A stretch of 39,389 nucleotides of DNA from Deferribacter desulfuricans SSM1 (GTDB lineage Bacteria > Chrysiogenota > Deferribacteres > Deferribacterales > Deferribacteraceae). The position numbers were made by a program, and so were the translations under genes. Each line of letters starts with the position of its first letter. Positions within the stretch are counted from its first letter, which is position 1. The notes under the pieces were generated by a model. The model searched no databases. It worked only from the letters and a program-made list of their open reading frames with translations, and was not told the origin of the DNA. Below, in pieces: positions 29,390 through 37,306 of the stretch. The stretch is taken from contig NC_013939.1 in NCBI RefSeq assembly GCF_000010985.1, positions 2,195,001 to 2,234,389 on the forward strand. The letters run 5' to 3'.

Positions 29390-29897
29390 ATATGCGGTAT
29401 TGAAATATCTGTTTTCGCACCCTTTATTTTTAGCAAATTTTATAATAGCATATTTACCAGAATGGTTATTTTTTATTCTATATCTAAAAAATAAAATAAA
29501 CTTAAAACAGCTGATTTTTCTAATATTAGTTAGAATTTTTGCAAAATGTTATATAGAATCAAAACCTCTATCAAAAAATGCTACAATAGAATTTTTCAAA
29601 AAAGTTCTTTCATCATTTTTTTCGGCTGTTTTTTCATTATTAGCTCTGTTACTGATTTTTACTCTTGCAATCCTTGCAAAATATAAGCTTATGATTTTAA
29701 CAATAATTATTTTTATAACCTTTATACTGCTAAAAAGTGAAATCAGCATCTCTCAAGGATTAAAAATCTTTTTAATAAATCTTGTATGGATACTACCTTT
29801 ATTAAATCCAAACGAAATAGTTTTAACCCTATCAATTTTAATATTTTTAACACTATCAGTTATACATTATTCTAAAAAAATGGAGATAGCTATATGA
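29382..29897 (+). CDS. Small membrane protein, unrecognised
   Basis: A 171 aa hydrophobic protein with about five membrane segments (near 15-33, 42-56, 75-98, 100-115, 127-160) and a lysine-rich loop around 56-73. I do not recognise a family. It overlaps mutS by 8 bases at its start and the rlmB-type gene by 4 bases at its end, so it is translated with both. Nothing in the sequence points to DNA repair or RNA modification, so the linkage may be only transcriptional. Confidence 0.78.
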   Translation: MHKYAVLKYLFSHPLFLANFIIAYLPEWLFFILYLKNKINLKQLIFLILVRIFAKCYIESKPLSKNATIEFFKKVLSSFFSAVFSLLALLLIFTLAILAKYKLMILTIIIFITFILLKSEISISQGLKIFLINLVWILPLLNPNEIVLTLSILIFLTLSVIHYSKKMEIAI

Positions 29898-30565
29898 TAA
29901 TTTATGGTAAAAACCCGGTAAAAGAAGCTTTAAAAAGTAAAAAGGTTAGAAAGGTTTTTTTCAGAGAACAGAAAATATTTGATGTAGGTAATACCCCTTT
30001 TGAAATAGTAAGCAAATCAGAATTTGATAAAAAGTTTTCTAAACATGCTCAATCGGTAGCTGCTGAAGTCGATTTTAGGTATTACGATTTTGATGAGGTT
30101 TATGAAGATATTGTATTAGAAGAAAATGTAGCAGTTCTCGATAAAATTCAGGATCCGCAAAATTTTGGGGCAATTGTTAGAGCAGGGCACTGCTTTGGTA
30201 TCAACTATTTCATAATACCAAAACATGGTAGCTCTTCTGTAACCCCTGCTGTTTTTAAGGCCAGTGCAGGAAGTATCATTTATTCAAAAATTGTAAAAGT
30301 GACAAATATTGCAAAAACACTTGATAAACTCCTTGATGCTGGTTTTTTCATTACAGCAGCTGATATAAATGGGAAAAAAGAGCTCTCAGAAATCAAAACA
30401 ACCAAGAGAAACTGTATTATCTTAGGCTCAGAAGGGGAAGGAATTAGATCAAATGTTTTAAAAAGAGCGCACATAACTTTTAAAATAGAAATGACAGGGA
30501 AAATAGACTCATTAAATGTTTCACAATCAGCTGCAATCACTTTTTATCACTTTTTTAAAGGGTAA
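29894..30565 (+). CDS. rlmB: SpoU-family RNA 2'-O-methyltransferase, RlmB-like
   Basis: This 223 aa enzyme is a SPOUT/TrmH-type methyltransferase that uses S-adenosylmethionine to methylate a ribose 2'-OH. The N-terminus (IIYGKNPVKEALKSKKVRKVFF) is the RNA-binding substrate domain typical of RlmB. The knot motifs are LDKIQDPQNFGAIVRAGHCFG (motif 1, Asn-Arg-x2), ILGSEGEGIR (motif 2) and MTGKIDSLNVSQSAAI (motif 3). RlmB would modify G2251 of 23S rRNA; a related RNA target is possible, so the symbol is likely, not certain. It overlaps the membrane-protein gene by ATGA and is followed after 3 bases by the pseudoenzyme gene. Confidence 0.87.
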   Translation: MIIYGKNPVKEALKSKKVRKVFFREQKIFDVGNTPFEIVSKSEFDKKFSKHAQSVAAEVDFRYYDFDEVYEDIVLEENVAVLDKIQDPQNFGAIVRAGHCFGINYFIIPKHGSSSVTPAVFKASAGSIIYSKIVKVTNIAKTLDKLLDAGFFITAADINGKKELSEIKTTKRNCIILGSEGEGIRSNVLKRAHITFKIEMTGKIDSLNVSQSAAITFYHFFKG

Positions 30566-30568
30566 AAT

Positions 30569-32320
30569 ATGGCAATCAAAGAAGCTTTAATCAGAAACGG
30601 TTTTTATGAAGCTGAAAAAGAAAGTAAAGAATATTTTTATATAAAAAATAGCTATGACGATAACTTTGGTTACATCTCCGTTTATAGCGAAGATTTTTTC
30701 ACCGTTTTAATAAAAGGCACATTCAAAAACTTTATTTTAAAGGTTAAAAACAGTGGTGCCCTTGATAAAAATGCATATATGAAAATAGCTGAAGCCGTAA
30801 CGTCCTTTGAACGGGAAATAGATGAACACTTAGAAATAAAGGTTTTTTTTGAAGATAACAAATTATATTTGTTAGATTTTAAAGTATTACCAAAATCTAA
30901 ATACCTTTTTGATAGAAGGAAAAACACCTCTTTTACCCCTTTAACAAATGTGGAATATTCCCTTTTCCATGATAGTTTGATTAAGGGGAAAACTTTGTAT
31001 CTAAACGGTTTCTTTAATAATATTTTTCCAGAAACTTTATCCCCTTTTTCTGCAAGTTTATTTAAAACTTTTGAAGAAGTTTTAAACCCATTTTTCGCTG
31101 AAAATGACATAAAAACGTTATCACCATCTATAAAGCATATTTTTAATAAACCATATATCAACCTGGATGCTATTAATCTTGCCTATTTTACACTGAAAAG
31201 TAATGAGCACTTCTTCCTTTTAAATTTTGCTCCACACCTTTATCTAAAGCTTAAAAAAGTAAAATTTAAAGATGTGAATTTAGACATCTTAAGAGAAAAA
31301 TCTATTGAAGAATTTTTTAAAGATATTGATGAAAATATTAATAAACTCACTTATGAAACCCTACTTGAAAATCTATTTATTATTGCTGCCAATATGTTTG
31401 CAGTTTTTGCTGTATTTTTCTTCAAATTCACTAACCATTTTTTACAGATTTATAACAAAGTAGAAAATTTAGATGTTGCACTAAAATTGATATATCTTAC
31501 AAAAAATAACTCCCTTCTAAAAAAAGAATTAGGGTTATATCCATTTTTTGATTTTAATATACAAAAAATAAAAGTATTGCCATTTGAATATGATGTAGAA
31601 AAAATAGAGGTTCTAATAAAAAACATACTGCCAAAAAGTAAATATATCCTTGGCAAAAATAAAATTATTAAAAACACCAAAGAAATACATAATCTTTTGG
31701 AAATAAGAGATAAGCTGATAATAAAGGCAAATGAAGCATTTGACAAAATAAAATCTATTATTAATGAAAAAATAAATGAGCTCTGCTCAGAAAATAAACT
31801 AAGGGAAAATCTCGATATTCGATTTCTTGAGATAAACAGTTTAAATGACTTAATAAACGATAACTACTTTGCAAACTATATCTTTAATTACACATTTAAA
31901 AAATGGCAATATGAACGGTTTTCTTTACAAATTACCCCAACAGAAATCTTCGAAGAGGATATACAAGAAACTCAAAAAATTATATCAAACTTCTTTGAAA
32001 AAAATAGGGATAAACAAGAATTTAAACCACTAATATTTTTTGAAAAAGAGAGAAAAGGGAATTTAACACACATAAACAGCTTAGAAAAAGTTGAAAAAGG
32101 GGGATTTTGTTATTCAAAAGGTGTATCCTTACCTATGCTAAAAAATATCAATGATTATGACTGCGTAATCGTTGAATCTGCACCACTTTTTTCATATCTT
32201 ATAGAATATGCAACAATTTTTGATAAAACTGTTATTACAGGGCTAAAAAATGTACCTTTAATATTAAAAGGGAAAAAATTGCATCTAAAAGATGGTATAT
32301 TAAGGGTTTTAGATGAGTGA
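30569..32320 (+). CDS. PEP-synthase/PPDK-like pseudoenzyme, catalytic residues lost
   Basis: This 583 aa protein follows the layout of PEP-synthase-related enzymes but degraded. Segment 83-108 (EIDEHLEIKVFFEDNKLYLLDFK) resembles the end of the ATP-grasp domain, where active enzymes read like DIEWA-x-LYLLQ-x-RP. Next come PETLSPFSASLF (154-165) and FNKPYINLD (192-200), then long helices (about 385-435), and a C-terminal segment from about 500 resembling the mobile PEP-utilising domain. There the phospho-histidine position (Ser-His-x-Ala) reads Ser542-Tyr543, so the swivelling His is absent. The front of the ATP-binding domain is also missing. Probably not a phosphotransferase; it may bind or scaffold. 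It overlaps the next gene by 8 bases. Confidence 0.7.
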   Translation: MAIKEALIRNGFYEAEKESKEYFYIKNSYDDNFGYISVYSEDFFTVLIKGTFKNFILKVKNSGALDKNAYMKIAEAVTSFEREIDEHLEIKVFFEDNKLYLLDFKVLPKSKYLFDRRKNTSFTPLTNVEYSLFHDSLIKGKTLYLNGFFNNIFPETLSPFSASLFKTFEEVLNPFFAENDIKTLSPSIKHIFNKPYINLDAINLAYFTLKSNEHFFLLNFAPHLYLKLKKVKFKDVNLDILREKSIEEFFKDIDENINKLTYETLLENLFIIAANMFAVFAVFFFKFTNHFLQIYNKVENLDVALKLIYLTKNNSLLKKELGLYPFFDFNIQKIKVLPFEYDVEKIEVLIKNILPKSKYILGKNKIIKNTKEIHNLLEIRDKLIIKANEAFDKIKSIINEKINELCSENKLRENLDIRFLEINSLNDLINDNYFANYIFNYTFKKWQYERFSLQITPTEIFEEDIQETQKIISNFFEKNRDKQEFKPLIFFEKERKGNLTHINSLEKVEKGGFCYSKGVSLPMLKNINDYDCVIVESAPLFSYLIEYATIFDKTVITGLKNVPLILKGKKLHLKDGILRVLDE

Positions 32321-33290
32321 TTTCAAAGAGCATTGTGATAAAGTATCAGATTGTATGCAAAAAACAGAAACTCAGTCAGTCTTTAACGAGCTTGAAAAAA
32401 CAAAGAAAGACAAAATTGCTGGGATGATAGCTGGAAATATAATTGGGGATATGCTTGGAATTACGCAAGAAGGGTGTTTCCCTACAATAAAACCATACCC
32501 TCCCATAAAATTAGAAGGGGAATATCAAAAAAATATCATAGGTGGTGGTCATCTAAATTTAAATGCAGGTGATTGGAGTGATGACACATCTATGCTAATA
32601 GCTCTTGCCACATCCTTAGATGAAAAAAGGGTTGTGGATGAAAACAGTGAAAGGAAGCATTATCTCAAATGGTTTTATAATGGTGAATATTCTTCTACAA
32701 ATACAGCAATTGGGATTGGTAAAACCACTTATAAAGCATTAAAAACTGGAAAACCTCAAAAAGATAGATTATCAAATGGCAATGGTGCTTTAATGCGCTC
32801 AAGTATCATTACAGCTTATTATCTTGATAAAACCGATAAAGAGTTAATAGAAGATTCAGCAAAGTCTGCTTCTGTAACCCATGGACATCCAATAGCGCTA
32901 TTTACAAACAGTATATATAACCTTTTATTAAAATATCTCATTTTAAATTACCCACTTGAAGAAGCTTTAGAAAAAGTAAAAAATACATTTTACGATATAA
33001 TAGAAGATATAAACCCAATCTTTGAAGAACCTGATATTTATACAACAACCCCCTATTGCGTAACAACATTACAAACTGCTATCTGGCTAAATATGGAATC
33101 AAAAAATTTTGAAGAAGCTGTTTTAAAAGCAATAAATATTGGAGGAGATACTGACACAATCGGTGCAGTAACAGGAGCAATTGCTGGAGCAATTTACGGT
33201 TTTGAATCAATCCCAAAAAGGTTTAAAAAATACCTGTTTAAACCTCCACTTACAAAATACACATCAATTATGAAATTTTTTATTGTTTAA
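32313..33290 (+). CDS. ADP-ribosylglycohydrolase (DraG/ARH family)
   Basis: A 325 aa protein with the binuclear Mg2+ site of this family: SDDT at 89-92 and GGDTDT at 277-282, followed by GAVTGAIAGAIYG. Also present are GMIAGNIIGDMLG (37-49) and VTHGHPIAL (188-196). Such enzymes remove ADP-ribose from proteins or other ADP-ribosylated molecules; DraG reactivates nitrogenase reductase in nitrogen fixers, but no nif genes are here, so the target is unknown. It overlaps the pseudoenzyme gene by 8 bases and converges with wtpB with a 27-base overlap. The first about 33 residues are extra to the core fold. Confidence 0.93.
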   Translation: MSDFKEHCDKVSDCMQKTETQSVFNELEKTKKDKIAGMIAGNIIGDMLGITQEGCFPTIKPYPPIKLEGEYQKNIIGGGHLNLNAGDWSDDTSMLIALATSLDEKRVVDENSERKHYLKWFYNGEYSSTNTAIGIGKTTYKALKTGKPQKDRLSNGNGALMRSSIITAYYLDKTDKELIEDSAKSASVTHGHPIALFTNSIYNLLLKYLILNYPLEEALEKVKNTFYDIIEDINPIFEEPDIYTTTPYCVTTLQTAIWLNMESKNFEEAVLKAINIGGDTDTIGAVTGAIAGAIYGFESIPKRFKKYLFKPPLTKYTSIMKFFIV

Positions 33291-35974: not shown

Positions 35975-37306
35975 TTAATTATAAAGACTTTTTTCGAGAA
36001 TTTTAATAGTTTCCTGCAACTCTTTATCTTTTTTTAACTTTTTTTCAATACTGTTAATGGAATGTAAAACTGTTGAGTGATCCCTACCTCCAAAAATTTC
36101 ACCAATTTCGCTTAAAGAACAGTTGAGTTTTTCTCTCATTAAATACATCGCTATCTGTCTTGGATAGGCAATACTTTTTGTTCTTTTTTTAGATTTAAGC
36201 TCAGATAATTTTACATTAAAATATTCCGTAACCACTTTTAGAATTGTATCAAATGTTATTATCTTATCCTTTTTAATCAAAAACCTATCAAGAGTTTTTT
36301 TTGCAAGCTCAATAGTGATAGGCTCCCCGTTAAAAGATGAATATGCTGATAATCTAATTAATGCACCTATAAGTTCTCGGACATTGTCACTTTTAAGATT
36401 TTCTGCTATAAATAGTGCCACCTTTTCATTTAAATCTATATTCATTAATTCTGCCCTTTTCATCAAAATAGCAGTTTTTTCTTCAACAGATGGTGGCTGA
36501 ATATCAGCAATTAATCCCCAAGCAAACCTCGTTGTCAGCCTTTCTTCCATCTCAGGGATTTCTGCTGGTGTTTTATCAGAAGTCAAAATTATCTGCTTTT
36601 GAGAGTCATAAAGAGAATTAAAAGTATAGAAAAACTCCTCTGTACTTCTCTGTTTTCCAGCTAAAAACTGAACATCATCAAAAAGTAAAACATCAACTTT
36701 TCTATATTTTTCTCTAAATTCATCCATCTTTTTAGATTTTAGTGCAGAAATCATCTCATTAGTAAAATTTTCACTTGATATATAAAGAACTCTTAATTTA
36801 GGAAACTTTTCAAGCAATCTATTCCCTACAGCATGCATCAAATGTGTTTTACCTAGACCAACACCACCATATATAAAAAGTGGATTATAAGTATGAAAAT
36901 ATCCATCTGCCACTGCCATACAAGCAGCATGAGCAAAATTGTTTGAATTACCCACAACAAAATTATCAAAAGTATACTGCTTATTAAGATTAGTTGTATA
37001 GACATCAATAGTAACAGAAGATGAAACAGTTTGTGCTGTATGTTTTTTCTGTTTTGTTGACGATTTAGTAACAACCTGTATGGTTTGTGCTTCTATTGAT
37101 AATGTTTCATTGAATATCTTTTTTACCACATTCAAATATTTTTCTTCAAACCAATTTTTATAAAGTCTATTTGGTGCAATCAATTGAATAAAATCTCCAC
37201 GTAACTCACCTACTTTAATAGGCTTTAGCCAAGTATTAACCTCTTGCTCAGAAATATGATTTTTTGCTTCTTTTAAAACTTCTTCCCAGATTTTATCGCT
37301 ACCCAT
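35975..37306 (-). CDS. dnaA: Chromosomal replication initiator DnaA
   Basis: DnaA binds and opens the replication origin. The 443 aa product has domain I (IWEEVLKEAKNHISEQEVNTWLKP), a short Ser/Thr/Lys linker (about 80-105), the AAA+ domain with Walker A GGVGLGKTH (147-155) and Walker B LLFDDVQF (Asp210-Asp211), and the DNA-binding domain ending in the DnaA signature GGRDHSTVLH (406-415). Its start ATG overlaps the ilvA stop by 8 bases, and wtpA follows after 10 bases. No dnaN, recF or gyrB is nearby, and no DnaA-box cluster is visible in the adjacent sequence. Confidence 0.98.
   Translation of the reverse strand: MGSDKIWEEVLKEAKNHISEQEVNTWLKPIKVGELRGDFIQLIAPNRLYKNWFEEKYLNVVKKIFNETLSIEAQTIQVVTKSSTKQKKHTAQTVSSSVTIDVYTTNLNKQYTFDNFVVGNSNNFAHAACMAVADGYFHTYNPLFIYGGVGLGKTHLMHAVGNRLLEKFPKLRVLYISSENFTNEMISALKSKKMDEFREKYRKVDVLLFDDVQFLAGKQRSTEEFFYTFNSLYDSQKQIILTSDKTPAEIPEMEERLTTRFAWGLIADIQPPSVEEKTAILMKRAELMNIDLNEKVALFIAENLKSDNVRELIGALIRLSAYSSFNGEPITIELAKKTLDRFLIKKDKIITFDTILKVVTEYFNVKLSELKSKKRTKSIAYPRQIAMYLMREKLNCSLSEIGEIFGGRDHSTVLHSINSIEKKLKKDKELQETIKILEKSLYN

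Follow-up and report, generated by a model that had tools for sequence, protein, structure and literature searches.

This locus raises the question of what is left for a dikinase-like protein to do when the front of its ATP-binding domain and its phosphate-carrying histidine are gone, and when its gene runs into that of an ADP-ribosylglycohydrolase. Pseudoenzymes are common, and degenerate members of known superfamilies are a known kind. The window, meaning the whole stretch of DNA analyzed, comprises 39,389 nt of the forward strand of Deferribacter desulfuricans SSM1 (contig NC_013939.1, positions 2,195,001 to 2,234,389). This genome consists of two contigs with a total of 2,542,933 bp, and the window lies on the contig of 2,234,389 bp. 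The protein is referred to here as the pseudo-dikinase, and the features discussed are collected in Table 1.

Table 1. Features of the pseudo-dikinase locus and of related loci (window positions unless a locus is given)
Feature	Position	Strand	Basis
RNA 2'-O-methyltransferase gene, upstream, RlmB/TrmH-like by inspection	29894..30565	+	ORF
Pseudo-dikinase gene	30569..32320	+	ORF, 583 aa translation; orthologues across the order
C-terminal remnant of ATP-grasp (PPDK_N) domain, residues 1-110	30569..30898	+	Aligns with the end of ATP-grasp domains
Central acceptor-binding domain, RPH type, shortened, residues ~111-480	30899..32008	+	hhalign
Codons of Arg380-Asp381, aligned with RPH-Lm Arg666-Glu667	31706..31711	+	Profile alignment
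Swivel (PEP-utilising mobile) domain, residues 484-583	32018..32317	+	Model and Foldseek
Codon of Tyr543, site of the phosphorylated His	32195..32197	+	Profile alignment, full length and swivel alone
ADP-ribosylglycohydrolase, DraG-like, 325 aa	32313..33290	+	PF03747, 5.9e-55
Intervening protein of family f7, 303-316 aa	L057:7006-7920, L069:6876-7823, L049:6949-7866	-	ORFs

Pfam and NCBIfam returned nothing usable for the window pseudo-dikinase, Pfam giving no match at all, and a single-protein scan of genome contigs with it found no match. Comparisons were made with a profile of 40 orthologues (alignment A1), to which all residue tallies refer. Among PDB sequences, the top match of this profile was the Listeria rifampin phosphotransferase, weakly (E ~0.08) and in two collinear pieces. 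Full-length proteins (835-1012 aa) that carry PPDK_N and PEP-utilisers domains were matched in collinear pieces with E-values down to 7.7e-14, a value that applies within a small set of ORFs. Profile-profile alignment related positions 71-586 to positions 246-847 with 99% probability, at an hhalign score of 152.9; 20 column-shuffled controls and one reversed control did not exceed 24.8. Each domain alone also exceeded its own shuffled controls (35.3 vs 20.0, 110.2 vs 24.6 and 31.5 vs 17.3), the central part reaching a probability of 97.9%. The AlphaFold (AF2) model of the protein has a mean pLDDT of 91.1 and a pTM of 0.90, and the top six PDB matches in a Foldseek search with this model were all RPH-Lm (E 1e-11 to 3e-9). 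A viral fold search gave nothing significant.

The first-pass annotation had read the layout of a PEP synthase/PPDK relative along the protein, and the profile alignment, the shuffled controls and Foldseek agree on the relationship to dikinases. Its assignment to the superfamily stands, but the closest relatives are RPH-type dikinases, in which the His domain comes last. Alignment and model indicate that the pseudo-dikinase is collinear with these enzymes, its His domain being C-terminal, and that it is less like PEP synthase or PPDK. In the latter two, the His domain is central and a pyruvate-binding domain forms the C-terminus (PMC4844700). What they have in common with the pseudo-dikinase is the ATP-grasp remnant and the swivel domain superfamily; their PEP/pyruvate-binding C-terminal domain is absent from it, and the swivel is its last domain. 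The landmarks picked out earlier each have a counterpart block in the full-length relatives: PETLSPFSASLF corresponds to the "P..vtPltwSi" block, FNKPYINLD corresponds to "GRxYfN", and the helical linker closes with a block matching "EDIFFL..EI".

Besides the fold, RPH-Lm (PDB 5FBS/5FBT/5FBU/5HV1-3; PMC4844700) shares with the pseudo-dikinase the order of ATP-grasp, acceptor domain and C-terminal swivel, as well as the blocks PxxxSP, GRxYxN, the Arg-acid dyad and EDIFFL. RPH-Lm is 867 aa long as against 583 aa, the pseudo-dikinase being without the ATP-grasp front. In the latter, the catalytic His is replaced, the Glu of the dyad has become Asp, and the site of Lys670, the neighbor of the dyad, is mostly hydrophobic or occupied by small polar residues, with Lys not kept. 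Unlike for RPH-Lm, there is no reason to expect rifampin binding. RPH-like dikinases have been called a large unexplored group (PMC4844700).

RPH-Lm binds the phosphates of ATP through Lys22, Arg117 and Thr136, and its His825 carries the phosphate (PMC4844700). About 200 ATP-grasp residues are absent from the pseudo-dikinase, including the segment that holds these three phosphate-binding positions. Of a complete RPH-type ATP-grasp domain (~314 aa), the alignment, which starts at model position 71, recovers just the final part. The earlier claim that the end of an ATP-grasp domain is retained is borne out by its alignment with the end of the PPDK_N domains of full-length relatives. The claim that the front is missing is likewise upheld, as the profile alignment covers only the domain end and a stop codon lies directly upstream. 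A missed N-terminus was considered and ruled out: an in-frame TAA (30563-30565), which is the stop of the methyltransferase gene, lies 6 nt upstream of the ATG with 3 nt between, so a longer N-terminus is impossible. The same order of methyltransferase and pseudo-dikinase genes is found in a congeneric genome (G001). The 40 orthologues conserve neither the sites near Glu297 of RPH-Lm (IEW) nor the LQaRP motif.

The second loss concerns the histidine. In the alignment, Tyr543 falls precisely at the position of the catalytic His, both over the full length and with the swivel domain alone, as had been proposed. In the orthologues this column holds Tyr in 22, Leu in 5, Phe in 5, His in 4, Pro in 3 and Ala in 1, and such variation indicates that the position is unconstrained. 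The phosphorylatable His of the GGxLSH motif is absent from the window protein, and where His does occur (4/40) the preceding Gly-Gly is lacking. The four His-bearing orthologues (L036, L054, L058, L070) are scattered. Conservation of the loss, which the first-pass annotation had put forward for checking, is therefore found in 36 of the 40 orthologues, but it is not uniform. The near-identical sisters L058 (SHAAEFA) and L059 (SLAAEFA) differ at this very column, a natural example of free variation. Overall, the parts needed for ATP binding and phosphate carriage in the known dikinase mechanism are missing. That the resemblance is coincidental, or that this is an active divergent dikinase, is hardly credible and is refuted by the data unless the model is wrong. 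The lack of any Pfam family match would fit such a reading, but the profile, the shuffled controls and two Foldseek searches all point the same way; moreover, the half that binds ATP is physically missing, and the His column shows no conservation.

The remaining domains tell a different story. The central domain holds P154-P159 (PETLSP), K194-N198 (KPYIN), D328, H374, R380-D381, R450, P457 and D464. The dyad Arg666-Glu667 of RPH-Lm is essential for the second phosphotransfer, to the acceptor (PMC4844700). At the aligned positions of the orthologues, Asp381 is found in 40/40 and Arg380 in 33/40, with Lys in a further 3/40, that is, Arg or Lys in 36/40. The first-pass annotation had staked its reading on a PEP-utilising mobile-domain fold at the C-terminus, and the structure model shows this fold. 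The swivel fold is intact (TM ~0.75 to RPH-Lm); modeled alone, the domain has a pLDDT of 89 and retrieves the phosphohistidine domains of RPH-Lm, pyruvate kinase, Enzyme I and PPDK in Foldseek, with TM of 0.72-0.77 for the best. The best single match is the extra C-terminal domain of Bacillus stearothermophilus pyruvate kinase (2E28, TMq 0.72), a likeness limited to that domain, which is attached there to pyruvate kinase. The two halves of the dikinase have thus had different fates, with the energy input gone and the acceptor dyad kept.

Of the 46 genomes of the order, 42 have an orthologue of the pseudo-dikinase, in most cases one copy per genome; searches of two genomes from the same class and three from the same phylum gave none. 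The remaining four genomes of the order are G005 and G012, which belong to one family, G026, which is 76% complete, and G036. For G036, a gap in the assembly may account for the absence: in its relatives G013, G027, G030 and G038, only a few kb separate the gene from the end of a contig. G022 has an additional short match where a contig ends, most simply explained by an assembly break. An RPH-like protein of 783 aa in G036 (L119:7147-9498, minus strand) was considered as a full-length counterpart and rejected, as it has its own His (in an SH motif), glycan-synthesis-type neighbors and no match to the family profile. This dikinase is flanked by genes of sugar-nucleotide and glycosyltransferase type, an adenylylsulfate-kinase-like gene adjoins it, and a glycan precursor is a possible substrate.

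Identity to the window protein ranges from 22 to 46% among the 40 orthologues, and ten residues are invariant: E129, P186, S187, D328, L377, D381, R450, P457, D464 and G558. For eight close orthologue pairs with estimable dS, dN/dS is 0.07-0.21 over the whole gene and 0.04-0.59 per domain (0.04-0.41 for the swivel domain); in a ninth pair, synonymous sites are saturated. All three domains are thus under purifying selection. The low ratios indicate that the gene is maintained, and a decaying pseudogene was ruled out by whole-gene values below 0.22 in the estimable pairs.

These conservation data bear on two other explanations of what is being maintained. One is a purely structural or scaffold protein without a small-molecule ligand, the dyad being kept for helix packing or domain docking. 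Its fast divergence, faster than that of the glycohydrolase by branch lengths, is what would be expected without chemistry. Such a role is nevertheless unlikely, since an Asp stands in all 40 orthologues exactly at the catalytic Glu position, while the neighboring Lys site is mostly hydrophobic. The other is that the pocket gained a different catalysis, such as hydrolysis of a phosphorylated or nucleotide compound, through D381 together with E129, D328, H374, R450 and D464. Six of the ten invariant columns are indeed charged or polar (E129, S187, D328, D381, R450, D464). We consider this explanation decidedly improbable, as there is no known catalytic motif and some conserved positions are fold positions in active dikinases (P457/P743 and S163/S331 of L080).

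The start of the glycohydrolase gene overlaps the end of the pseudo-dikinase gene by 8 nt. Linked glycohydrolases of this subfamily occur in 13 genomes from four families, and in 13/13 the pseudo-dikinase gene immediately precedes them on the same strand, the spacing ranging from -11 to +14 nt. They are 48-75% identical to the window glycohydrolase and catalytically intact, with the catalytic Asp motifs DDT and GGDxDT invariant in all 13. Trees of the 13 glycohydrolases and of their 13 partner pseudo-dikinases have identical unrooted topology, and their path distances correlate at 0.88. In the other 29 genomes, the pseudo-dikinase is present without a linked glycohydrolase. The coupling proposed earlier is therefore strict from the side of the linked glycohydrolase, but the latter is not an obligatory partner. 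Glycohydrolase-linked members occupy separate places in the tree of all pseudo-dikinase orthologues, so an ancestral gene pair with several losses of the glycohydrolase would be the simplest account. The linked pseudo-dikinases share additional conserved residues (N436, Q447, Q454, E462, E546), a pattern confounded by phylogeny.

As for the identity of the glycohydrolase, it matches the DraG/ADP-ribosylglycohydrolase family (PF03747) over its full length, with invariant catalytic Asp motifs. It differs from it as a distinct subfamily with its own N-terminal extension, unlinked to DraT. No glycohydrolase outside the order exceeded 37% identity at E <= 1e-30 in 385 genomes searched, and a scan of genome contigs with the window glycohydrolase gave no match. 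A function as nitrogenase DraG was rejected: DraT usually has a separate glycohydrolase beside it, and two Deferribacter genomes (G000, G001) have the linked glycohydrolase while DraT is absent. The N-terminal extension (window 32313-32420) has a conserved V-S/A-D-C-L/M motif, to which no other glycohydrolase of the order aligns.

Glycohydrolase apart, the gene neighborhoods of the pseudo-dikinase vary between families. In the window, the pseudo-dikinase gene and dnaA (35975-37306, minus strand) are ~3.7 kb apart. In families f7 and f4 (G023), the gene is directly or one gene upstream of dnaA (loci L057, L063-L069, L072), and in G023 the two overlap. The ancestral site of the gene is likely beside dnaA. 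In f7, a protein of 303-316 aa with a signal-peptide-like start sits between the two genes; two copies scanned had no Pfam match.

The first-pass annotation had suggested a non-catalytic role, and the retained acceptor-side dyad narrows this towards a retained ligand pocket. We hypothesize that the pseudo-dikinase is a ligand-binding clamp with a regulatory or scaffold function, partnered by the glycohydrolase where that is present, and we give this reading an even chance. The protein descends from an RPH-type dikinase with ATP-grasp, acceptor-binding and C-terminal swivel domains and has lost the first half of its chemistry, namely the half of the ATP-grasp domain that binds the ATP phosphates, along with the His that is phosphorylated. 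It is left with the acceptor-binding and swivel domains and with R380-D381 where active enzymes hold the acceptor phosphate. A small phosphorylated or nucleotide-like ligand might then bind between the central and swivel domains, around this dyad, and the open or closed state of the clamp could be read by partner proteins. In lineages with the overlapping gene, the partner would be the intact ADP-ribosylglycohydrolase, recruited or controlled by the pseudo-dikinase. The 29 genomes without a linked glycohydrolase imply a core role that is independent of it. Speaking against the clamp are the loss of the Lys670 equivalent and the differing neighborhoods between families, and the dyad could be structural.

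The kept dyad would also be compatible with phosphotransfer in trans, in which the acceptor pocket takes phosphate from the phosphohistidine of another protein, e.g., Enzyme I or PPDK, so that the first half-reaction is outsourced. The dyad is essential for the second half-reaction of RPH-Lm, and the genome itself encodes two PEP-utilisers-domain proteins of 581 and 875 aa. This scenario is very unlikely, however, as the docking site would be taken up by the protein's own His-less swivel domain, Lys670 has been lost, and no conserved pts or ppdK linkage was seen in the gene neighborhoods.

Returning to the ligand-binding clamp, a narrow literature search found no description of a conserved dikinase family that is without the energy-input half, keeps the acceptor half and has a dedicated glycohydrolase in part of an order. 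The family, which lacks a Pfam match, would hereby receive a first annotation, and it offers a natural experiment on what a dikinase acceptor domain does by itself. The gene pair is a candidate partner system for an ADP-ribosylglycohydrolase other than nitrogenase DraG, testable with one gene pair. More doubtful is the extension that pseudo-dikinases sense a phosphorylated or nucleotide metabolite across the order and control a dedicated glycohydrolase in part of it. If this sensor reading is true, the pair would represent a module that regulates reversible ADP-ribosylation and is distinct from DraT/DraG.
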